DNA from: a virus
IMG/VR virus record: IMGVR_UViG_3300043543_000667
Coordinates: 1-31,719 of that record
Reading direction: 5' to 3' (one strand)
DNA length: 31,719 nt
The translations under genes and the position numbers were made by a program. Positions 16,438 through 31,719 of the stretch are shown one piece after another. How positions within the stretch are numbered: the first letter of the stretch is position 1; every line of letters begins with the position of its first letter. The notes under the pieces were generated by a model, which ran no database searches, had not been told where the DNA came from, and worked only from the letters and a program-made list of their open reading frames with translations.

Positions 16438-17733
16438 TCACCCCCTATCTGGCAGCAGTCCGCGCTGTCGCGCGCTCGCCCGCGCCTTGACTGCGTCCTC
16501 CCAAGGCGCGACGTGGACGTCCCACGGCACCGGTTCCGTGCGTACCCACTTCAGGACGGCCCGTTCGAACACTTGGTACACGGCGCCGTCGAGTTCGAAC
16601 TCGTCGGTCAACGGCCAACCCAGCGTTCGGAGTGGCAGCGTCGGGTCAGTCCGTTCGAGTTGCCGCCACAAAGCGAGGAACCCGTGCCCGACGTGCCGCC
16701 CGAACGGGCCGATCTGTTGGACGTCCTGCGTCACCGCGACACCCCCTTCGAGATAGCGCCGCACCCGTTCCCGGTACCCAACGAACCCCTGCGTAAGGAT
16801 GCGGCGTGGGCAGAACTTACCACTCCAATGTTGGTGCGGCACGACATGTTCGAGCGGGATGCTCAATGCCCTGCAGAGCGCCGCGACGAGCCGTGCGCCG
16901 TGATCCTGTGTCCGTTCCCAGTTACTGCCGGCATGGACACAGTGCTCGATCCCAACGGAAGCCCGGTTCCCGACTCCGTTCGGCCCGTCGCCGGCGTGCC
17001 AACCGTTCTCGACGAGCGGCAAGAGTTGAATGATTTCTTGATCGTCGACGACGTAGTGGAAACTCACCTGCCCCAGCCCGCCGCCCGCGTGCACGAACCG
17101 CCGGTGCATCTCGGCGTTCGCCCCTGGTGACTCGTTCGCGGTCTCGTGGATCGTGATCCAGGTCGGGCGCATCGGGTAGGCGGGGCGATTCGCATTCCCC
17201 TCTGGAATCCACGAGATGCGGTAGGCCACGCCCGGCACTTCCGGTTCGGCGCGCCCGTTCATGAACCGCACGACGGCGTCGATGTAGCTCGCCGGGTCGT
17301 TCCCGTCACCGGCCGGTGCCCAGATCGGGATGATCTGCGCGATCGTCCAGCATTTCCGTTGGCGATAGACAAACTGCGGGTCGGTGAGCCGCCGCGCGAG
17401 ATCCCGGAACCCCTCCACCCAGTTCGGGTAGCGCCAGAACTGGCCCCGCCCCGGCACCAGCACAGGCTCCCCCACGCCAGTGCGACTCGACCGCGTCGCC
17501 CCCGGGTTGCGGAGATCGTGCGACGCGACGACGCCGACTGTGCCGAACCTGCTTTCATGCCAGAAGACCGCCAACGCGAACAACGGGTCGACGCCCTCGG
17601 CAGCCACGGCCGCCCAACACTCGTTCGCTTCGCTCGACGCGGGCGAACCCGCGTCGCGCAAGGCATACGCGAAACTCTCCCGACTGATGCGGGGCAGCAC
17701 CCCGACGACAGGCGTCTCCTTCGTCACACTCAT
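16438..17733 (-). CDS. Modular endolysin: glucosaminidase-like domain plus amidase_2 domain
   Basis: The 431-residue protein starts at ATG 17733 (GGAGG seven bases upstream, ATGA overlap). Residues 40-160 resemble a lysozyme-like or glucosaminidase domain, with F-A-L-A-V-F-W-H-E60-S-R-F-G supplying a candidate catalytic Glu. Residues 185-320 are an N-acetylmuramoyl-L-alanine amidase (PGRP/amidase_2 fold): H196 in I-T-I-H-E-T, then H300, K306 and C308, spaced as in T7 lysozyme (His, +6 Lys, +8 Cys). Residues about 350-405 hold G-W-P-L-T-D-E-F and V-Y-Q-V-F-E-R-A, resembling LGFP-like cell-surface repeats. There is no signal peptide, so release needs the holin. Its place between the terminase and portal genes is unusual for a lysis gene; a virion-associated role is an alternative. 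Confidence 0.88.
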   Translation of the reverse strand: MSVTKETPVVGVLPRISRESFAYALRDAGSPASSEANECWAAVAAEGVDPLFALAVFWHESRFGTVGVVASHDLRNPGATRSSRTGVGEPVLVPGRGQFWRYPNWVEGFRDLARRLTDPQFVYRQRKCWTIAQIIPIWAPAGDGNDPASYIDAVVRFMNGRAEPEVPGVAYRISWIPEGNANRPAYPMRPTWITIHETANESPGANAEMHRRFVHAGGGLGQVSFHYVVDDQEIIQLLPLVENGWHAGDGPNGVGNRASVGIEHCVHAGSNWERTQDHGARLVAALCRALSIPLEHVVPHQHWSGKFCPRRILTQGFVGYRERVRRYLEGGVAVTQDVQQIGPFGRHVGHGFLALWRQLERTDPTLPLRTLGWPLTDEFELDGAVYQVFERAVLKWVRTEPVPWDVHVAPWEDAVKARASARQRGLLPDRG

Positions 17734-18059
17734 GGTCGTGCCTCCAATCTGCCCTCGAGATGGCACCAGCGGAGAAACAGCCACCAGTGGCCCGTCCGCC
17801 GGTCGATTTCCGGAACCCGCAACGGGTCGTAGTCCGGCGGCGGCGAGGCGCGCGGCAGGTGGCAGGCCAAGAGTTCGCCCAATTCTTCAGGGGCGGCCAG
17901 GGCCCGGCGACGCACCGTCTCGACGATATGCCCCGACGACAGGACGAGGCCGAGGATGCCGTCCTGTTCGTACCATGCGATCACCACGAAACCGTGTCGC
18001 GCCAACTGCGCGAACAGCGGTGCGAGTGTCTGAATCGTTGCCCGGCACGTGCCCTGCAT
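17730..18059 (-). CDS. Unknown protein between terminase and endolysin
   Basis: This 109-residue protein has an alpha/beta start (A-R-H-G-F-V-V-I-A-W-Y-E-Q-D-G-I-L-G-L), a Pro-rich middle (S-P-P-P-D-Y-D-P) and ends with G-H-W-W-L-F-L-R-W-C-H-L. It begins three bases after the large terminase stop, with TGGGGGTGACC before the ATG, and overlaps the endolysin start. I see no catalytic or metal motif and do not recognise a family. Tight packing in the operon supports that it is real. Confidence 0.6.
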   Translation of the reverse strand: MQGTCRATIQTLAPLFAQLARHGFVVIAWYEQDGILGLVLSSGHIVETVRRRALAAPEELGELLACHLPRASPPPDYDPLRVPEIDRRTGHWWLFLRWCHLEGRLEARP

Positions 18060-20817: not shown

Positions 20818-21871
20818 CCGAACCCCCTTTCGTGTCCTGCTCGATGAGCCGTTCGGTCTCGGCCAACACCGCCCGGATGAACTCGTCTGGCGTCATCTGC
20901 CGACTCCGCGGCGGTTCGAACTGTGTCCAGTTCGCCACCAGGGCCGTCGGCGTTAGCGGAACGTTGGGCCAGCGCCGGCGGTATTCCTGGGCCCGACGAC
21001 GGATTTCCTCCGCTGTCACGCCGATCTCTGCCAACTCTTTGGCGGCCCGGTTGTACCGGCCGCGCTCACTGCGGGACAACTGGACAGTACCATACTCGCG
21101 GCCGGTACACTCTTCGACCAACGCGCGGAACAGGCTCCGCGCATGTCGCCGCTCGGGTGGCCCGATGCCAGGTACCGGCACCGCACCGGGCGCACACTCT
21201 AGTGTGTTAAACTCGTTTTCTAATCCTACGGGAGTATTAGTTATATTAATCACACTAGAGTGTGCGGGTTCGTCCCTTCGCCGGCGCCGCGGCCTGCTGC
21301 CCGTTTGGGTACGCACCTGGCCCACCAGATCTGGTGGTGCCGCCCCGTTCTCGGCCACCAGATCTGGCAATGGTGCGACGGTCACCTGTTGGTCTTGTGA
21401 CGGTCGCGTGACGGTCGCGTGATCGTCGCGTGACGGTCGCGTGACCGCCGCATGACCGTCACGCGCCGGGCCCGTGACACTCGCATGACCATCGGGGGGC
21501 GTACCGATGGTCGAGTCGGTCGCCTGGGCAGCGGTCCGCCGCCGGGCGCGTGCCCGGCGTGCCCGTTCCCGCATACCGAGAATGCGACGGGCGAGCCGGT
21601 CGAAATCGACGACGGCCAGCCGCCCTTCGCGCATCTCGATGAGGCCCGCGGTGACGAGGGTAGCAACGGTCTCTTCGGTCGTGTCGAGTACAGCCGCAAC
21701 GACCGCGGGCTCCAACTGGATCGTGCCGTCGGGTGCGGGAACGTCGAGCGCGAGACCGGCCAACATGGTGACCCAACCGACGACAGCGGCCCGGGGTACC
21801 CCGAGCCGCTGCGCCGCCACAATGACACGAGGGTCATGCCAATAGTCGGTGGGGACGGCTACCCAACTCAT
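20801..21871 (-). CDS. Replication initiator (DnaD-like replisome organiser) containing the origin
   Basis: This 356-residue protein starts with ATGA coupling to the regulator gene. Residues 1-95 look like a winged helix of the phage replisome organiser/DnaD N-terminal kind (W-V-A-V-P-T-D-Y-W-H-D-P-R-V). Residues about 95-235 form a linker rich in Arg, Thr, Asp and His with an 11-residue repeat (D-G-H-A-A-V-T-R-P-S-R and variants, about 126-158). Residues about 245-345 form a helical C-terminal domain with A-K-E-L-A-E-I-G-V-T-A-E-E-I and L-T-P-T-A-L-V-A-N-W. The linker DNA holds iterons and an AT-rich dyad, as the lambda O gene holds its origin. No polymerase or helicase gene is present, so the product presumably recruits host replication proteins. 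Confidence 0.75.
   Translation of the reverse strand: MSWVAVPTDYWHDPRVIVAAQRLGVPRAAVVGWVTMLAGLALDVPAPDGTIQLEPAVVAAVLDTTEETVATLVTAGLIEMREGRLAVVDFDRLARRILGMRERARRARARRRTAAQATDSTIGTPPDGHASVTGPARDGHAAVTRPSRDDHATVTRPSQDQQVTVAPLPDLVAENGAAPPDLVGQVRTQTGSRPRRRRRDEPAHSSVINITNTPVGLENEFNTLECAPGAVPVPGIGPPERRHARSLFRALVEECTGREYGTVQLSRSERGRYNRAAKELAEIGVTAEEIRRRAQEYRRRWPNVPLTPTALVANWTQFEPPRSRQMTPDEFIRAVLAETERLIEQDTKGGSDAVDR
21191..21266. other. AT-rich unwinding region within a perfect inverted repeat (putative origin, right part)
   Basis: CGCACACTCTAGTGTG (21191-21206) and its exact reverse complement (21251-21266) flank 44 bases that are about 73% A+T in an otherwise G+C-rich genome. Each arm is itself a dyad (CACACT-CT-AGTGTG). 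A 21-bp imperfect palindrome (21220-21240) lies near the centre. Nested dyads around an AT-rich core next to iterons are typical of replication origins. Function is inferred. Confidence 0.6.
21322..21337. repeat. 16-bp palindrome near the putative origin
   Basis: CCACCAGATCTGGTGG is a perfect palindrome. The 13-base core CCACCAGATCTGG recurs at 21355-21367, 33 bp away. Both lie between the AT-rich dyad and the iterons, so they may bind a dimeric protein. Confidence 0.5.
21397..21495. repeat. Nine-unit 11-bp iteron array in the initiator gene
   Basis: Units of GTGACGGTCGC begin at 21397, 21408, 21419, 21430, 21441, 21452, 21474 and 21485, all in 11-bp phase; the unit at 21463 is degenerate. 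The first, second and fourth are identical, and the others differ at one to five positions. Eleven bases is close to one helical turn, so binding sites would face one side of DNA. In protein the array reads as 11-residue repeats, so DNA and protein periodicity coincide every 33 bases. Typical iterons of phage or plasmid origins are the best explanation. Confidence 0.65.
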
Positions 21872-22101
21872 GAGTCGCTCCGCTGGTTTCCGCTAGCCGC
21901 GTCCAACAACCATTCGTATCGCGGGCGGAGCGAACCCTCGTTGCGCTCGAGGAGACTGCAGTAGAGCCGCAACGAGTCAATCACGAATTCGGTGAGTGTC
22001 CGGTACTCGAAGGTCTGCACGAGCCGCATCATGCGCTCGTACAGCTCGACCGGGACGCGCACCCCGATCGTGCAATGTGGCGAATGGGTCGGTCGTGGCA
22101 T
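21868..22101 (-). CDS. Ribbon-helix-helix transcriptional regulator
   Basis: This 77-residue protein has a strand C-T-I-G-V-R-V-P (residues 10-17) and two helices (V-E-L-Y-E-R-M-M-R-L-V-Q-T-F, then T-L-T-E-F-V-I-D-S-L-R-L-Y), the Arc/MetJ/CopG arrangement. Such proteins bind DNA as dimers through the strand pair. The start has GGAGG followed by a short spacer and ATG. It is first in the minus-strand operon and lies beside a divergent promoter pair. It is a natural candidate to control both directions, including itself and the DNA modification genes. Confidence 0.8.
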   Translation of the reverse strand: MPRPTHSPHCTIGVRVPVELYERMMRLVQTFEYRTLTEFVIDSLRLYCSLLERNEGSLRPRYEWLLDAASGNQRSDS

Positions 22102-22240: not shown

Positions 22241-23758
22241 ATGGACCTGGTGGTCATTTGTGAGGACGTAGACACGAGTGAGTTCCCGGTCGTCGGAGGC
22301 ACGCCATTTGCCCGCGCTGTCCGCGAGTATGTCCTGTCGCGCGGTGTCCCGAACTGCGGGATCGCGTTCTGGACGCGCGGTGCGCTCATCCCGCAATACA
22401 GTCGTACCGAGCCCAGGGCGGCACGCCTGGCTCAGGCACTCCAGCGCTTCGACCGGATCGTCGTCTGGGGTGACGACCAGGCGCGGGGGCAGCTCATGAC
22501 ACGGTTCCCTTTCGTCGCACACAAGATCGTCGGCGCTGACGGTGTCGGCACGATCGACCTGTTGCTGGCTCGGTACGGCGCGTACCCGCCAGGCTCGCGG
22601 CCGCTCGCGAGACGCGACCATCCCTTGGCATTCCTCGCTTGGGCGCCGGAGCTACGCTCCTCGGCGCTGACCGACCACGAACTCGACCAACGAGTGGCCG
22701 GATACGGCCTGCCAGACGTCGTCGCAGTCGGGGACGGGTTGCTCGTTGCCCTGGAACAGACTGCCGGGCCGGTGGTCTCGGTCGAAGAGTCGGTCTGGCG
22801 CGAGTTCTGCATGAAACCGCTCCGGGCGCACTATCCGTTCTTGGCCGACTGTTACGTCATCGGCGACAACGGCGCGGTCGGGGCCATGGACGAACCCGAA
22901 CCGTTGATCACTCCACGCGAACTCGCCTACGCGTACTGTGTTTTGGGTGTCGACGCCGCGTTCGCGCTCGACCACATTCCGCACCCACGCCTGCCCTACG
23001 AGGAGCGGGTTCGCCGGGTCGGTTTATCGCTCGAGCTGACCTATGAGTTTCTTACCGAGGCTCGCGCCTACCCGTACCGGTCGTTCGCCATTGCCCATGG
23101 GATGAGCCCGGCCGAGATCGGTCGCACACTCGAGCTCTATGCGACGGACGGCATACCGGGCGTTGCCATCGCGGTCAAGGCGATCCGTTCCGACAGGCAC
23201 TTCCTGGCCACGGTCGAGACATACCGCGCAGTGCTGCGGCGCTTCGAGTGGGTGCACTTTCTCGGTGTTCGCGCGCGGCGCCTCGCCAAACTGGGCGTGA
23301 CCGGTGCGTGCGACAGCTTCGACACGTCCGGCCCTCTCATGGGTACCATGACATCTGATGAGCTATTGATCGGTAAGGAGTTCTGTACATCGTTGTACAT
23401 TCCACCGATCACTGACCGGTACGTCGAGCGCGCCGCACTCGATGCTCTCCTCGCCTACGAGCGAGGCACACGAGACCTGGAAACCGTAGTGGGCGCGATC
23501 GAGCGCCACTGGCGCGTGGCGGTCGAAGAAAGGGGGGTCGCCGATCGATGGGATCGTCAAAGGGTCCGTCGCGTGCTGGAACGACGGTTTTGGGAAACTT
23601 GCCCCTGTCCGGTCTGCAGGAAGATCGGTATCGCGGTCGCGATCCACCGCACCGACAGCCATAAATACGCGCAGGCGGTGCACAATTACTGGACGGAACT
23701 CAACTATCTCCGAGCCCAGCCGGAAACCCAGAAACCGTCCCAGGTCTACCTATTGTGA
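22241..23758 (+). CDS. dpdA: DpdA-like 7-deazaguanine DNA transglycosylase with N-terminal UDG-like domain
   Basis: This 505-residue protein would exchange guanine in phage DNA for a 7-deazaguanine such as preQ0. The C-terminal part (about 190-490) is TGT-like: G-D-N-G-A-V-G-A-M-D-E-P (candidate D209), S-F-A-I-A-H-G, V-H-F-L-G-V-R-A-R-R-L-A-K, G-A-C-D-S-F-D (D358/D361), then the TGT zinc site C454-x-C456-x-x-C459 and H481-N-Y-W. Residues 1-110 read like a family-4 uracil-DNA-glycosylase fold (G-G-T-P-F-A-R-A-V, then R-I-V-V-W-G-D-D-Q-A) without certain catalytic residues. I chose ATG 22241 because GCGAGGG precedes it and the promoter would place longer starts upstream of the RNA; ATG 22211 is possible only if another promoter is used. 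The transporter follows 16 bases later and QueC is elsewhere in the genome. Confidence 0.85.
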   Translation: MDLVVICEDVDTSEFPVVGGTPFARAVREYVLSRGVPNCGIAFWTRGALIPQYSRTEPRAARLAQALQRFDRIVVWGDDQARGQLMTRFPFVAHKIVGADGVGTIDLLLARYGAYPPGSRPLARRDHPLAFLAWAPELRSSALTDHELDQRVAGYGLPDVVAVGDGLLVALEQTAGPVVSVEESVWREFCMKPLRAHYPFLADCYVIGDNGAVGAMDEPEPLITPRELAYAYCVLGVDAAFALDHIPHPRLPYEERVRRVGLSLELTYEFLTEARAYPYRSFAIAHGMSPAEIGRTLELYATDGIPGVAIAVKAIRSDRHFLATVETYRAVLRRFEWVHFLGVRARRLAKLGVTGACDSFDTSGPLMGTMTSDELLIGKEFCTSLYIPPITDRYVERAALDALLAYERGTRDLETVVGAIERHWRVAVEERGVADRWDRQRVRRVLERRFWETCPCPVCRKIGIAVAIHRTDSHKYAQAVHNYWTELNYLRAQPETQKPSQVYLL

Positions 23759-23774
23759 GCGGAAGGGGGCACAG

Positions 23775-24323
23775 ATGGGATACATACTGGTCGCGGCTTA
23801 CCTCATTATGATCGTGATCGCCAACTATGCGGTCACGTTCGCCCGCATGCTCGGCTGGAGCGAGGCACAGATGACCCTGCTGTTTATGACTCAGGGGTTC
23901 CTGTTCATCGGGGGCGATCTCGTCATCCGTGATGCACTCCATGAGCGGTGGACTCGGCATAAGGTCTGGAAACTCGGCGCACTCATCGTGACCGGCGGGC
24001 TCTTGTCGGCACTTCTCAATGCTGAGGCGATCCGGGTCGCGGTCGCCTCGAGTGTCGCGTTTATGGCCGCCGCCACCGCCGATGCGATCGTCTACCAGTT
24101 CGCCATGCGGTGGCCGCGCATCGTTCGGGTGAACACGAGTAATGTCGCCGGTGCGATCGTCGACTCGGTCGTCTTCCCGACGATCCTCTTCGGTGGGTTC
24201 GCGCCGATTGCGACGTTGGGCATGTCCCTGACGAAAATACTGGGCGGCGCCGCCTGGGGTGCGATCTTCGCCCTCACGATCTGGCGGGAGCGCCGCCCAG
24301 CGCCGGAGTCACTCTATCGTTAG
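23775..24323 (+). CDS. yhhQ: Queuosine-precursor transporter, YhhQ/VUT family
   Basis: This 182-residue protein has about six transmembrane segments (residues 4-24, 33-50, 66-84, 86-106, 127-149 and 150-172). Family motifs are clear: A-S-S-V-A-F-M-A-A-A-T-A-D-A-I-V-Y, then R-V-N-T-S-N-V-A-G-A-I-V-D-S and V-V-F-P-T-I-L-F-G. Members import preQ0/preQ1 through the inner membrane. It is slightly shorter than the bacterial protein (about 220). GGAAGGGGG precedes the ATG, and the gene follows dpdA in one operon, so it probably raises the precursor pool for DNA modification. Its last 15 bases overlap a convergent gene. Confidence 0.82.
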   Translation: MGYILVAAYLIMIVIANYAVTFARMLGWSEAQMTLLFMTQGFLFIGGDLVIRDALHERWTRHKVWKLGALIVTGGLLSALLNAEAIRVAVASSVAFMAAATADAIVYQFAMRWPRIVRVNTSNVAGAIVDSVVFPTILFGGFAPIATLGMSLTKILGGAAWGAIFALTIWRERRPAPESLYR

Positions 24324-26629: not shown

Positions 26630-27202
26630 ATGAGAATTCTCGTTCCTTGCTTCGACGTCCTGCCACCCTCGTGGGTGGAGACAGGCATCCGGGTATCGCC
26701 GGGGCGCGAGATCGTCCTCGGTGAACAGGGCCGGGGACGCAAAGAGACGCGCGTGCGCGTCCCGGGGGGGAGCGTGTTTTCGGAGGACGGGAAAGTTGTC
26801 CTCCAGATCCCTGTCTCCCATCCGGACGCGGCAGCCGTCATCTGTATCCGGGATTTCTCCGGATACAAGGGAACGTGGGATTTATTGTTGCCGATCCCTG
26901 ACGACCTGCTCCGGCTCTTTGACCAGACGGGGCAGTACGATGTCCTCCAGGGACGGCTACAAGAAACGACGCCGCCCCTGCTCATCGCGTACGGCCGGCG
27001 TGCCCAAGGGATGGCAGGGCGGGTCGGCCAAGGGGACGAACTGCTCTTCATCGCGAAAGCCGGTGACGAGTACGACATCTTCCGATGGGGGCGTATCTAC
27101 GGCGCTCCCCGGATCCTGCGGTTGCGCGTGGGGCAGGGCACAGTGACCGTCACCGACGTCCTCGCCGAGCTCCGTGCGCGAGATGCGGAGGCCCGTTGGT
27201 GA
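26630..27202 (+). CDS. Early protein, paralogue of the 28021 gene
   Basis: The 190-residue protein starts at ATG 26630 after GAAAGGAGGGTACCG. Its first 90 residues align by eye with the gene at 28021: L-V-P-C-F-D-V-L-P-P, G-I-R-V, V-R-V-P-G-G-S-V, and A-A-V-I-C-I-R-D-F-S-G. The C-terminal halves share length and D-I-F-R / D-I-V-R-L-N plus a final V-T-V-T-D-V-L-A-E-L-R-A-R-D-A segment. The protein appears beta-rich with a final helix. No known domain is recognised. A strong terminator follows. Confidence 0.7.
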   Translation: MRILVPCFDVLPPSWVETGIRVSPGREIVLGEQGRGRKETRVRVPGGSVFSEDGKVVLQIPVSHPDAAAVICIRDFSGYKGTWDLLLPIPDDLLRLFDQTGQYDVLQGRLQETTPPLLIAYGRRAQGMAGRVGQGDELLFIAKAGDEYDIFRWGRIYGAPRILRLRVGQGTVTVTDVLAELRARDAEARW

Positions 27203-27906: not shown

Positions 27907-27939
27907 GGCGTGCCCGCGTCCTCGCTCGTGCCACGGGGC

Positions 27940-27968
27940 TTGACACGGGCGGCGCCGTGTGGTATATT
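27940..27968 (+). promoter_or_regulatory. Strong early promoter, cassette copy 2
   Basis: TTGACA (27940-27945), 17 bp, TATATT (27963-27968). The sequence from the -35 box through the leader hairpin to the GAAAGGGGGG ribosome site is a near copy of 25598-25670. It drives the 28021 gene. Confidence 0.85.
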
Positions 27969-28020
27969 ATTATCGGAACCCGGGGAGCGGCCCCGGGGGC
28001 AGGTGAAAGGGGGGTTTACC

Positions 28021-28563
28021 ATGGTAGCGCGATTGGTGCCCGTCTTCGAAGTGCGCCCGCCGGCATACGTCCTGCCCGGCATCCGAGTGGACGCCGACCG
28101 CCGCGTCACCCTCGGGCGGCCTGGGCGCGAGCAGGTGCGGTTTCGGGTACCTGAGGGTGCGGTGATCCGCGACCGGCTCGTCACCCGGATGCCGGTCGAC
28201 GGCGACGACGTCGCGGCGGTCGTCGCCATCCGCGATTTCTCGGGGCTCGACCGCGGAACGTACGTCCTGGCCGAGCCCATCGACGAGGACGTCATCTGGG
28301 CCTACGTCATGACCGGCGACGTCGAAACCCTGTATCGGGCGATCACACCGGCCTCGCCACGAACCCTCGCCGCGGCCGCTGACCGGTATGGCGGCGAGTG
28401 GCTAGTCCTGGCCGGGCCCTGGGAGGCGTACGATATCGTGCGCCTCAACCGGCTCGGCAACGCGCCGGCCACGGTGTTGCGCCTCATCGTTACGGAGGAA
28501 CAAGTTGAGCTCGTGAACGTGATGGTGTATCTACGGCAGCGCGACGCATGGGTGCGGCAGTGA
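28021..28563 (+). CDS. Early protein, paralogue of the 26630 gene
   Basis: The start at ATG 28021 lies behind promoter copy 2 with GTGAAAGGGGGG upstream. The 180-residue product has L-V-P-V-F-E-V-R-P-P, G-I-R-V, F-R-V-P-E-G-A-V, then A-A-V-V-A-I-R-D-F-S-G, all matching the 26630 protein. Its C-terminal part shows Y-D-I-V-R-L-N-R-L and V-N-V-M-V-Y-L-R-Q-R-D-A-W. The pair arose by duplication, with different promoter arrangements. No function is recognised. Confidence 0.72.
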   Translation: MVARLVPVFEVRPPAYVLPGIRVDADRRVTLGRPGREQVRFRVPEGAVIRDRLVTRMPVDGDDVAAVVAIRDFSGLDRGTYVLAEPIDEDVIWAYVMTGDVETLYRAITPASPRTLAAAADRYGGEWLVLAGPWEAYDIVRLNRLGNAPATVLRLIVTEEQVELVNVMVYLRQRDAWVRQ

Positions 28564-28597: not shown

Positions 28598-28615
28598 ACG
28601 ATGGGAGGAGGGAGT

Positions 28616-28930
28616 ATGAACAAGAAGACGGTTCGCTGCGGGTACTGCGGACAGGTGGTGGCGTCTGACGACGCCTACGAGCATACCGTGCCGCACCTGG
28701 CCGAGGTCATACCGATCGTCGATGTCGCGAACTTCCGGGCCCGCCTCGCGCGGCACGTACCCGTGGGCCCAGGGCGAATCGAAGTGCAATACGCCGATCC
28801 GCAGCCACCGCAGCGTATGTTGGCGGCGGCCGTCCGCCGGGCCGGCGGCGCGCTAAATATTTCGGGGATATACCCGGTGAGCCCGGCGCTGGTGCGGTGG
28901 CTTGCGCGGCGGGCGCCGCAATGGAAGTAA
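28616..28930 (+). CDS. Small zinc-finger protein, unknown function
   Basis: The ATG at 28616 follows GGAGGAGGGAGT. The 104-residue protein has C-G-Y-C-G near its start and H-T-V-P-H about a dozen residues later, a C2H2-like zinc finger. A middle region has E-V-Q-Y-A-D-P-Q-P-P, and the end is a basic helix (L-V-R-W-L-A-R-R-A). It may bind nucleic acid. There is no promoter of its own, so expression likely comes from readthrough of the terminator upstream. Confidence 0.68.
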   Translation: MNKKTVRCGYCGQVVASDDAYEHTVPHLAEVIPIVDVANFRARLARHVPVGPGRIEVQYADPQPPQRMLAAAVRRAGGALNISGIYPVSPALVRWLARRAPQWK

Positions 28931-28941
28931 GGGGGGCAGCT

Positions 28942-29322
28942 ATGGTCGTGAAGACACCGTTCGTGTATATCCCACATGAGGCGCCGTTACTCGATTACGC
29001 CGCATGGGATCGGATCCGTGATATGCTCGAGAACGCGGGCGATGACCAGGCTGAACTCGTGGTTCTATTGCGCGACTACGCGGATCAAGCCGCGCTCTAC
29101 CTGTCGCGGCGCCTGATCCGGAATCCTCAGACAGCAACCAATCGCGAGTGGCTGAACGCGGTGACGTCAACAGTCGCGAGCATCGCCGCAGCTTCCAAAC
29201 TGGAGCCGCGAACTGTGGACGAGTACCGGTTCCGTGGTCAGGCGATCGAAACCGGTTATTTGCACTTGGCCGCACTGCTGCTCGCTTGGGCCGCCGTGAC
29301 TGAGCAACGGCATAACCAGTAG
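28942..29322 (+). CDS. Last early gene, helical protein of unknown function
   Basis: Starting at ATG 28942, behind AAGGGGGGCAGCT, this gives 126 residues. It is nearly all helical: W-D-R-I-R-D-M-L-E-N-A, A-E-L-V-V-L-L-R-D-Y-A-D-Q-A-A-L-Y-L, V-T-S-T-V-A-S-I-A-A-A-S-K-L, and a final A-A-L-L-L-A-W-A-A-V-T. There is no signal peptide and the helices are amphipathic rather than transmembrane. It ends just before a strong bidirectional terminator. Family unknown. Confidence 0.65.
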   Translation: MVVKTPFVYIPHEAPLLDYAAWDRIRDMLENAGDDQAELVVLLRDYADQAALYLSRRLIRNPQTATNREWLNAVTSTVASIAAASKLEPRTVDEYRFRGQAIETGYLHLAALLLAWAAVTEQRHNQ

Positions 29323-29342
29323 TCGGTGTAGCGAACGAGGGA

Positions 29343-29375
29343 GGCAGCGGGGCCGCCGGCCCCGCTGCCTGTTTA
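29343..29375. terminator. Bidirectional terminator between early genes and QueC
   Basis: A perfect 12-bp stem GGCAGCGGGGCC / GGCCCCGCTGCC with a GCC loop lies between two convergent genes. TGTTTAT follows in the plus direction. It would stop early transcripts from the left; in the minus direction the hairpin has no T-run and is weaker. Confidence 0.85.
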
Positions 29376-29388
29376 TCCTCATCCCTAC

Positions 29389-30081
29389 CTACCCTTGGCG
29401 TGCGGCGGCGAGGAGCGGATCGGAGATACCGACGGCGGCGAAGGCCTCGGCCCGTAGGCGGCACGAGTCGCACCGTCCACACGGGCGTTCCCCACCGCGG
29501 TAACACGACCACGTGTCCGCGTAGTCCACGCCCAACTTGAGCCCTAGCCTGATGATGGCCGACTTCGGGGTGTGGAGGAACGGCGCGACGACAGGTATGC
29601 GCTTCTTGGTCTCGATGTAGCGCTTCGAACCGAGATCGGCCGCTGCCTGGAACGCGTCGAGAAACTCGCCACGGCAATCCGGGTACCCGCTGTAGTCGAT
29701 CTGGCTCACCGCGATGGCGATCAGGTCGGCATCGATCGCCTCGGCATAGGCGCGAGCGACAGAGAGGAAAACGAGGTTACGCAGAGGGACGTAGGTCGAA
29801 GGGATGCCTGGCGTCGGTTCGGTCGGTATTTCGCCGTCCCCGACTAGCGACGAACCGCCCCACTGGGCGAGGTCGATCGTCACCAGCCGCCACGCCGCGA
29901 CATCGAGTTTTTCTGCGGTACGGCGGGCGGCCTCGATCTCGCGCTCGTGTCGCTGGCCGTACCGGAACGTCAGTGCACAGAGGTCGAAACCATACGCGTC
30001 GAGCAAATAGGCGAGCGTCGTACTGTCCAACCCGCCCGAGAGGAGTACGACTGCGCGGTGTGGCCGGTTCACGCTGGTCAT
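29389..30081 (-). CDS. queC: 7-cyano-7-deazaguanine (preQ0) synthase
   Basis: This 230-residue enzyme makes preQ0 from 7-carboxy-7-deazaguanine with ATP and ammonia. Diagnostic elements are the ATP-binding loop S-G-G-L-D-S (15-20), F-R-Y-G-Q-R-H (39-45), V-P-L-R-N (98-102), D-Y-S-G-Y-P-D-C-R and the zinc ligands C193, C201, C204 and C207 in C-Y-R-G-G-E-R-P-C-G-R-C-D-S-C. Length is that of cellular QueC. I chose ATG 30081 because GAAAGGAGGCAACG precedes it. It is not linked with dpdA and the transporter but has its own promoter at the end of the tail genes. QueD, QueE and FolE are absent, so the substrate must come from the host. Confidence 0.95.
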   Translation of the reverse strand: MTSVNRPHRAVVLLSGGLDSTTLAYLLDAYGFDLCALTFRYGQRHEREIEAARRTAEKLDVAAWRLVTIDLAQWGGSSLVGDGEIPTEPTPGIPSTYVPLRNLVFLSVARAYAEAIDADLIAIAVSQIDYSGYPDCRGEFLDAFQAAADLGSKRYIETKKRIPVVAPFLHTPKSAIIRLGLKLGVDYADTWSCYRGGERPCGRCDSCRLRAEAFAAVGISDPLLAAARQG

Positions 30082-30119: not shown

Positions 30120-30149
30120 ATTCTAGCACTCGTGACGACGCTCTGTCTC
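30120..30149 (-). promoter_or_regulatory. Candidate promoter of queC
   Basis: On the minus strand GAGACA (30149-30144), 18 bp and TAGAAT (30125-30120), with TG one base before the -10 box (extended -10). The sequence GTGCTAG occurs twice with an 11-base period across the -10, so a regulator could bind there. The promoter overlaps the end of the tail gene. Confidence 0.5.
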
Positions 30150-31230
30150 ACCACCACGTATTCGGGTCACGCCCGAGCATCGCTGCTTCCGTAACTAGGC
30201 GTAGTTTCTGAAGAGCCTCGTCGGGCGTGGTAGGCCGGCCCGCCTCGATGCTGACTGTCGGCCCCGGGTAGCGGTGGACAACCCTTGTCACACGTACCGG
30301 CCCGCAGCCGGGCACGAGGACGTCGTCGCCAACTTGAATCGCGGTCGCGCTGGCGAGCGTGTTGTCCGAGCGCTCCCACTGGCCGATACCGCGCCAACTC
30401 ACGCTCGGCATCGGTGCATAGCGCTCGTAGAGCAGGCGATAGGCGATCGCGCTCGGATTCGCGACGTTTGCACGCGTGACATCGGCGATGACGCGGCGCG
30501 CGAACCCGAGATCAGCAGCGCGTGCGCTGTCGAGCGCGTTCACGGTACTGATCGAGGATCCGGATTTGTACCGCACAACGACCTGCGTCGCGAGCTCGTC
30601 GTAGCGCGGCCAGGTCACGGTCGCGTCCGGTGGGACGACGAGCGGTACGCTCTTCATCTCCTTCAACGGCTTCGTGCCCCAGGTCGTGACACGCAGAATT
30701 CCGCCCGGCTCGGCACGGATATCGACGAGCTGGCCGTCGTCGGTAGCCAGCCGACGCAGGAACTCGCAGGCATCGGCGACGGTAAACTCAGCTGACGTCG
30801 TCCCCTCGAGCGGTGGTGCGCCGGCGACGCGGAGGAACGGTGCCGTGTTGCCGACGACGGTTGGAAGCAGGTTCCCGTACGTGCCAGCGTAGCTGATCAC
30901 GTCGTGCGCGACCCGGTCGTAACCGACGGCGGTGAACCCGAGGAGCTGTCCGCCACGCCCCCATTCGAGTTCGGTGACGAACCCTTCCCAGACGTTCGCG
31001 CCGTCTACGAGGGCGACAACGTGCGACACCCAGCGTACCGGTGAATACCGCCAGGGAACATCGGTGTCGGCCCGTGCATCGGTTGGCACGAGAGCGACTC
31101 GGAGTGTATCGCAGCCACGCCGAGACCAGCTGATCTCGAGCGAGCGAATCTCGACCTCGAGCCCCCACTTCGCAATGGGTTCGAGAACATCGAGGCTCAG
31201 TCTAGCGGGTGGGTAGATGATGACCTGCAT
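30148..31230 (-). CDS. Tail tip / baseplate hub-like minor tail protein
   Basis: The 360-residue protein follows the large distal tail gene after six bases, in the usual place of the second tail-tip protein. It is beta-rich with W-G-L-E-V-E-I-R-S-L-E-I-S-W-S-R-R-G, V-A-L-V-D-G-A-N-V-W-E-G-F-V-T-E-L-E-W and V-G-Y-D-R-V-A-H-D-V. This resembles the hub-type proteins (Gp37-like in actinophages, gp27/D-like more broadly) that close the tail tube. The C-terminal segment V-L-V-P-G-C-G-P-V-R-V-T-R-V looks like a small OB-like or barrel part. No peptidase motif was found. It is the last structural gene before queC. Confidence 0.72.
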   Translation of the reverse strand: MQVIIYPPARLSLDVLEPIAKWGLEVEIRSLEISWSRRGCDTLRVALVPTDARADTDVPWRYSPVRWVSHVVALVDGANVWEGFVTELEWGRGGQLLGFTAVGYDRVAHDVISYAGTYGNLLPTVVGNTAPFLRVAGAPPLEGTTSAEFTVADACEFLRRLATDDGQLVDIRAEPGGILRVTTWGTKPLKEMKSVPLVVPPDATVTWPRYDELATQVVVRYKSGSSISTVNALDSARAADLGFARRVIADVTRANVANPSAIAYRLLYERYAPMPSVSWRGIGQWERSDNTLASATAIQVGDDVLVPGCGPVRVTRVVHRYPGPTVSIEAGRPTTPDEALQKLRLVTEAAMLGRDPNTWW

Positions 31231-31236
31231 CGGCTC

Positions 31237-31719
31237 TCACCACTTCGTGTAACTGAGGACATCGACGACGAACTGCCGATCGACGATCTCGCGCTCCTCT
31301 AGTGACTCGATAGGGAACACCACGAGCGTCGCCTTGCCATGTACCTCGAGGACTCCACGTTGTGCGCCGAGGACAACGTTACCCGGCCGGTAGACCAGAT
31401 ACGGTTCGTCGGCATACCAGTATGCGTAGGATGACTGGCCTAGCACTGCGGCATATGCCTGCTCATCTGACCCGAGCGCACTCAGTGTACCTGTGGCAAA
31501 TGCTGGTGAGGGTTCATTCACGAGCACGAGCCAGCGTATCCCGAACTCCCCACCCATGTTGTCTCCACTTAGCGTGACCATGCCGTTCACGTTCGGGAGC
31601 GAGACATTCGCTGAGCTACTCGTCCAGCTCCCGGGTGTACCGACACGGAGCGTCAGTGTCGTACCGTTGTACGAGAGGAGCAACGTCCTGGGTACCGTGC
31701 TCGGCCGTGTAACGCTCAC
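31237..31719 (-). CDS. Large distal tail protein, C-terminal part (continues from base 1)
   Basis: These codons are the in-phase end of the gene that starts at 3211; the first 42 codons repeat the other end of the window. The part at about residues 990-1090 reads like a LamG/concanavalin-type jelly roll (S-L-S-I-A-W-H, L-E-F-W-F-G-S-S-T-I-E-V-R, L-L-L-S-Y-N-G-T-T-L-T-L-R-V-G), a common sugar-binding module in tail proteins. The final segment L-E-E-R-E-I-V-D-R-Q-F-V-V-D-V-L-S-Y-T-K-W is a conserved-looking C-terminus. There is no real start here; a GTG at the very edge of the window is an artefact of the cut. Confidence 0.82.
   Translation of the reverse strand: MSVTRPSTVPRTLLLSYNGTTLTLRVGTPGSWTSSSANVSLPNVNGMVTLSGDNMGGEFGIRWLVLVNEPSPAFATGTLSALGSDEQAYAAVLGQSSYAYWYADEPYLVYRPGNVVLGAQRGVLEVHGKATLVVFPIESLEEREIVDRQFVVDVLSYTKW
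31593..31719. repeat. Terminal direct repeat, right copy
   Basis: Base-for-base copy of positions 1-127. It lies inside the 3' part of the large distal tail gene, and the reading frame is the same on both sides of the join. See the left copy for interpretation. Confidence 0.9.

Follow-up and report, generated by a model that had tools for sequence, protein, structure and literature searches.

The stretch of viral DNA analyzed here, hereafter the window (31,719 nucleotides, positions 1 to 31,719 of IMG/VR record IMGVR_UViG_3300043543_000667), carries the following genes and features:

1 to 127, no strand: direct terminal repeat, identical to 31593-31719.
22241 to 23758, plus strand: predicted DpdA-like DNA-guanine transglycosylase, 505 aa (NF041059, sequence match to 7ui4, predicted fold).
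22241 to 22561, plus strand: N-terminal extension of this enzyme, residues 1-107, a small alpha/beta element predicted with low confidence, no family match.
22862 to 22876, plus strand: GDNGA motif, residues 208-212, with G208, D209, G211 and A212 invariant in 54 sequences.
23315 to 23323, plus strand: SFD motif, residues 359-361, with S359 and D361 invariant in 54 sequences.
23591 to 23686, plus strand: zinc site W451..C454-x-C456-xx-C459 ... H481-N482, invariant in 54 sequences.
23775 to 24323, plus strand: predicted VUT/YhhQ-family 7-deazaguanine precursor transporter, 182 aa (Pfam Vut_1, phrog_4899, hydrophobic segments).
29389 to 30081, minus strand: queC, 7-cyano-7-deazaguanine synthase, 230 aa (PF06508, TIGR00364, motifs), with a strong Shine-Dalgarno sequence.

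Because the 127-bp segments 1-127 and 31593-31719 match exactly and the genes at the opposite window ends are neighbours in a syntenic sister contig (G002), the window is a complete, circularly closed phage genome of about 31,592 bp. The dpdA-like gene and the transporter gene, separated by exactly 16 bases, are the first genes of a rightward operon, and queC closes the leftward late/structural operon at its 3' end; a terminator-like hairpin lies near 29340-29370 between the two operons. The three genes are thus not one transcription unit. The codon-position G+C of all three resembles that of the terminase, portal and capsid genes of the phage, and neither a riboswitch nor any other RNA was detected in the window using Rfam. 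The start of the dpdA-like gene is provisional: its frame stays open upstream to 21992, and the opposite strand has a divergent frame (21868-22101), resembling a ribbon-helix-helix protein by eye, which begins at 22101. Elsewhere in the window, a lysin with an amidase domain (16438-17784, minus strand) occupies an unusual spot between the portal and terminase genes, and its central domain alone matches known phage amidases. Two neighbouring plus-strand genes, 26630-27202 and 27910-28563, match the same G002 gene (52% and 38%) and look like a duplication of an early gene without assigned function.

Comparison with G002 also established the status of the three genes. In this contig some 90 bp separate the homologs of 30148-31230 and 28601-28930, queC is missing from the gap, and neither dpdA nor VUT is present elsewhere in the contig. 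None of the seven terminase relatives, several of which are fragments, carries dpdA, VUT or queC. Since G002 is syntenic and lacks all three genes, the set is accessory, dispensable cargo. A 141-aa frame adjoining queC (28897-29322, plus strand), without Pfam match, is missing from G002 too and may belong to the same insertion.

The 505-aa enzyme matched the NCBIfam DpdA model NF041059 with an E-value of 4.8e-25 and 88.2 bits, under the curated equivalog cut-off of 200 bits, and for this reason we name it DpdA-like. It matched Pfam TGT weakly (E 0.0012), and its sole PDB match by sequence was 7ui4, a DNA-guanine transglycosylase (preQ0 insertase; E 2.6e-12). A structural model of the enzyme (mean pLDDT 72, mostly 80-98 from residue 200 on) gave a Z score of 31.9 to 7ui4 and of about 20 to tRNA TGTs, the model having been built with a DpdA alignment as input, which may incline the comparison toward DpdA. 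The closest solved fold to this predicted structure is that of DpdA and not that of a tRNA TGT. By sequence and predicted structure the protein, with a catalytic core at about residues 108-505, groups with DpdA and not with tRNA TGTs, and the opposite placement, among transglycosylases acting only on tRNA, which the sequence-only reading had named as contrary to its proposal, was not obtained.

An alignment of 54 DpdAs from bacteria and viruses contains 22 invariant columns, all retained in the phage enzyme, among them D209, D244-H245, D361, C454, C456, C459 and H481; by analogy with TGT, Asp209 would be the general base and Asp361 the nucleophile. The claim of a DpdA-like gene at 22241 with a TGT zinc site is thereby borne out, the four residues C454/C456/C459/H481 being located in an intact frame. 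The same alignment revealed extensive change at 35 of the 73 well-conserved positions (>=85%): GDCGAFxY has become GDNGAVGA (with Asn at residue 210, where Cys is usual), the AIGG pocket AIAV, and the RNRRRGFHN loop HKYAQAVHN. In a phylogenetic tree the enzyme fell on a saturated branch, so that its placement failed and we make no claim as to its origin. When NF041059 was run on known phage DpdAs, that of 9g scored 14 bits and those of PEAT2, Flyfo and the Rosebush type (TA17A) were not matched; nor did tblastn at E 1e-5 find sequence similarity between our enzyme and the classic phage types (9g, Rosebush, PEAT2). Because the bacterial DpdA model matches the phage enzyme but not the known phage DpdAs, the enzyme is a relative of the zinc-containing DpdA of bacterial dpd islands, extremely diverged in sequence. 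A single-sequence scan of 2.9 million viral contigs returned no relative, and tblastn against 50,697 phage records yielded nothing at E 1e-5 and, at the looser threshold of E 0.01, a single weak match.

Residues 1-107 matched no Pfam family, not even the DUF6884/YaaA-like domain that long bacterial DpdAs (~690 aa) carry at the same, N-terminal, end. By eye this region looked like a UDG/YaaA-like domain, but it had no Pfam match, its structural model was poor (pLDDT 55) and fold comparison gave nothing meaningful, so we assign it to no family. The dPreQ0-hydrolysing enzyme DpdC is assigned to the YaaA/DUF328 family (PMC12839542). Given the score below the cut-off, the changed pocket residues and this unmatched domain, the assignment to the DpdA family stands, but as a diverged bacterial-island type whose activity and product are not assured.

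The 182-aa transporter contains hydrophobic segments, passes Pfam Vut_1 (31.9 bits against a cut-off of 27.2, E 2e-7) and matches phrog_4899 (E 6e-29), in agreement with the earlier placement of a VUT/YhhQ protein 16 bases behind the enzyme. It does not reach the queuosine precursor transporter equivalog TIGR00697 (22.2 bits against 50.95). A VUT protein from a Chloroflexota genome, other than the one with a terminase relative described below, is 49% identical to it. YhhQ is a preQ0 transporter found in about 9% of dpd islands (PMC11888242).

The complete QueC previously read at 29389-30081 was fully confirmed: the 230-aa protein matches PF06508 (E 2e-67) and TIGR00364 (202 bits, cut-off 150) and contains all the motifs SGGxDS, YxQxHxxE, VPxRN, YPDC and C(x)7CxxCxxC, the spacing after the first zinc-motif Cys being 7 instead of the canonical 8. 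This full canonical set, judged against the QueC cluster signature of PMC13329287, argues for conversion of 7-carboxy-7-deazaguanine (CDG) to preQ0. Among the profiles that the sequence-only reading had put forward, QueC and Vut_1 hence cleared their cut-offs, and DpdA was recovered with a low E-value but below its equivalog threshold. IMG/VR counts of QueC matches (L026-L103) were discarded: many matches sit at the extreme edge of a prophage contig and probably represent boundary copies of queC that belong to the host, so viral QueC counts were not used. This pattern suggests that queC flanks a common prophage boundary, inflating the apparent number of "viral" QueC genes.

A Pfam scan of 23 phage ORFs detected no FolE, QueD, QueE, QueF or DpdB, and tblastn searches of the circularised genome with phage 9g, mycobacteriophage, Paenibacillus and Enterobacter queries detected no FolE, QueD, QueE or DpdB. 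As the genome is complete, the absence of FolE, QueD, QueE and DpdB is genuine, which strengthens the earlier description of a compact set lacking FolE, QueD and QueE. The dpd-island arrangement with dpdB beside dpdA is likewise absent, no DpdB match occurring anywhere in the circularised genome, and no restriction genes were recognised in it; DpdB is reported to be dispensable in some clusters (PMC12839542).

With neither QueD nor QueE encoded, QueC depends on an outside supply of CDG. A terminase search of 400 Chloroflexota genomes found one relative (TerL 73%), on a contig that is self-closing, its ends overlapping by 49 bases, and that probably comes from a phage and was binned along with the MAG; we therefore do not claim a Chloroflexota host. 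In this one MAG, of unstated completeness and linked to the phage by binning only, TGT and VUT were present and QueD and a canonical QueC were not found; a QueE query, run without positive control, was silent. The gene profile of the MAG is that of a salvager. With QueD and canonical QueC missing there, host-made CDG is not assured.

We consider it probable, short of confident, that the three genes together serve a DNA modification with 7-deazaguanine of the salvage type. In this scheme a 7-deazaguanine base would enter through the VUT transporter, QueC would convert CDG, host-made or salvaged, to preQ0, and the bacterial-type DpdA relative would replace guanine in the phage DNA by preQ0 or a closely related base, shielding the modified DNA from host nucleases. 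Since the phage encodes an importer and the last precursor enzyme without the earlier ones, the material would probably come from the host or the surroundings. A precedent exists in phage 9g, whose DpdA in E. coli inserts preQ0 from the host pathway (PMC6884629). The proposal, which predicts preQ0 in the phage DNA, draws on the closeness of the enzyme to DpdA in sequence and fold, the retention of all invariant residues, the canonical QueC and the Vut_1 protein encoded 16 bases behind; absence of the genes from G002 also fits an anti-restriction trait, which would be expected as dispensable cargo. Weighing against it are the 35 changes at 73 conserved positions, the saturated branch, the lack of DpdB, the two operons and the MAG without QueD or canonical QueC.

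Several of these observations bear on other explanations. It is unlikely, on balance, that this is a DpdA relative of changed specificity, inserting another 7-deazaguanine (CDG, ADG, preQ1 or a salvaged base) or working at particular sites, the N-terminal domain serving for recognition or modification. The change from GG to AV in the AIGG pocket, at a position that contacts the C7 substituent in TGTs, the loss of the Arg-rich loop and the unmatched 107-residue extension would all suit such an enzyme, whereas the catalytic Asp residues and the zinc site are unchanged. The DUF6884/YaaA-like domain at the same end of long bacterial DpdAs, from a family linked to DpdC (PMC12839542), points the same way, but the sequence of the phage domain does not match DUF6884, and the quality of its model is too low for comparison. 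We also regard as somewhat unlikely a new branch of DNA transglycosylases, kin to the dpd-island enzymes, that would combine a reshaped pocket and an N-terminal module of its own with independence of DpdB and use of a salvaged 7-deazaguanine other than preQ0.

It seems quite improbable that the set acts on host tRNA, the transporter and QueC feeding a TGT-like enzyme that raises queuosine during infection and aids translation. The TGT superfamily acts mainly on tRNA, the enzyme does match Pfam TGT at E 0.0012, and this role has been offered for phages with preQ0 genes but without DpdA (PMC6884629); however, the PDB sequence search found only the DNA transglycosylase, and the fold is closer to DpdA (Z 31.9) than to tRNA TGTs (about 20), in a model that leans toward DpdA through the alignment it was built on. 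We give very little weight to a QueC unrelated to DpdA, whose late consumption of CDG would starve host Cap9 (type IV CBASS) or QatC defences, in which deazaguanine is used for protein conjugation and QueC-family proteins catalyse deazaguanylation (PMC13329287, PMC13279940). The position of queC in the late operon, apart from dpdA, would agree with this, but in many bacterial and some viral loci QueC is found together with DpdA, for which base supply is the simpler reason. Decay of the gene set with an inactive enzyme is also most improbable: the long branch, the many conserved residues lost and the lack of a close relative among the 2.9 million viral contigs are what decay might leave, but the frames are intact, codon-position G+C is typical, and drift would not have spared 22 of 22 invariant columns.

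The pairing of DpdA and VUT is in principle already known from other phages and bacteria (PMC6884629, PMC11888242). Phages with DpdA and full preQ0 sets and phages with DpdA alone have been described, with YhhQ scattered among phages, and phages carrying such genes could use host or exogenous precursors (PMC6884629). A non-exhaustive literature search found no description of DpdA, VUT and QueC alone in a complete phage genome, and their combination in one phage appears new. Of chief interest are the divergence of this bacterial-type DpdA and the fact that the upstream pathway is genuinely missing; DNA modification is plausible. If salvage-type DNA modification does take place, a 31.6-kb genome with only an importer, the last precursor enzyme and an inserter would indicate how little DNA hypermodification needs, and the system would test phage use of host versus environmental 7-deazaguanines, a question left open in PMC6884629. 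A divergent DpdA that retains its catalytic residues without DpdB would also be a probe for the parts that set base choice and DNA recognition.

Compared with the DpdA of bacterial dpd islands (NF041059; 7ui4), the phage enzyme has the same predicted fold, catalytic Asp residues and zinc site, but differs in its score (88 bits against a cut-off of 200), in 35 of 73 conserved positions and in its extra unmatched N-terminal domain; unlike the islands, the phage has no DpdB found and no restriction genes recognised. Sets of the 9g and Rosebush type (PMC6884629) resemble the present one in combining phage-encoded DpdA and QueC, but their DpdA is short (317-346 aa) and they also carry FolE, QueD and QueE. 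Among viral sequences, a human faecal phage clone (MT835580.1, L107 2595-7862) has the order dpdB-dpdA-dpdB-queE-queC and, labelled phage, amounts to much of a bacterial dpd synthesis operon. Another viral locus (L196 2178-3951, and L195) encodes a divergent 336-aa zinc-site DpdA preceded by a 271-aa frame which is PP-loop/PAPS-reductase-type ATPase-like by eye and for which Pfam gave nothing clear. In PEAT2, Flyfo Tbat1_6, ECO111 5-P and AB3P2 a transporter of the same family adjoins a TGT-type enzyme, which belongs to a different TGT/DpdA subfamily of 243-262 aa (a comparison confined to the gene pair). In Paenibacillaceae dpd-like clusters (e.g. plasmid pART37, L108), VUT directly precedes a zinc-site DpdA with no DpdB nearby, as in seven loci of this family with VUT immediately before the long DpdA; there the DpdA is ~690 aa long with an N-terminal DUF6884/YaaA-like domain, and queC-queD-queE are present in several clusters. 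Six Paenibacillaceae loci (L113, L116, L117, L127, L130 and L150) encode two TGT-like proteins behind VUT and without DpdB: the long DpdA and an additional TGT of ~310 aa. That VUT recurs beside DpdAs of different types is the strongest evidence obtained here that the importer and the enzyme act in the same pathway.
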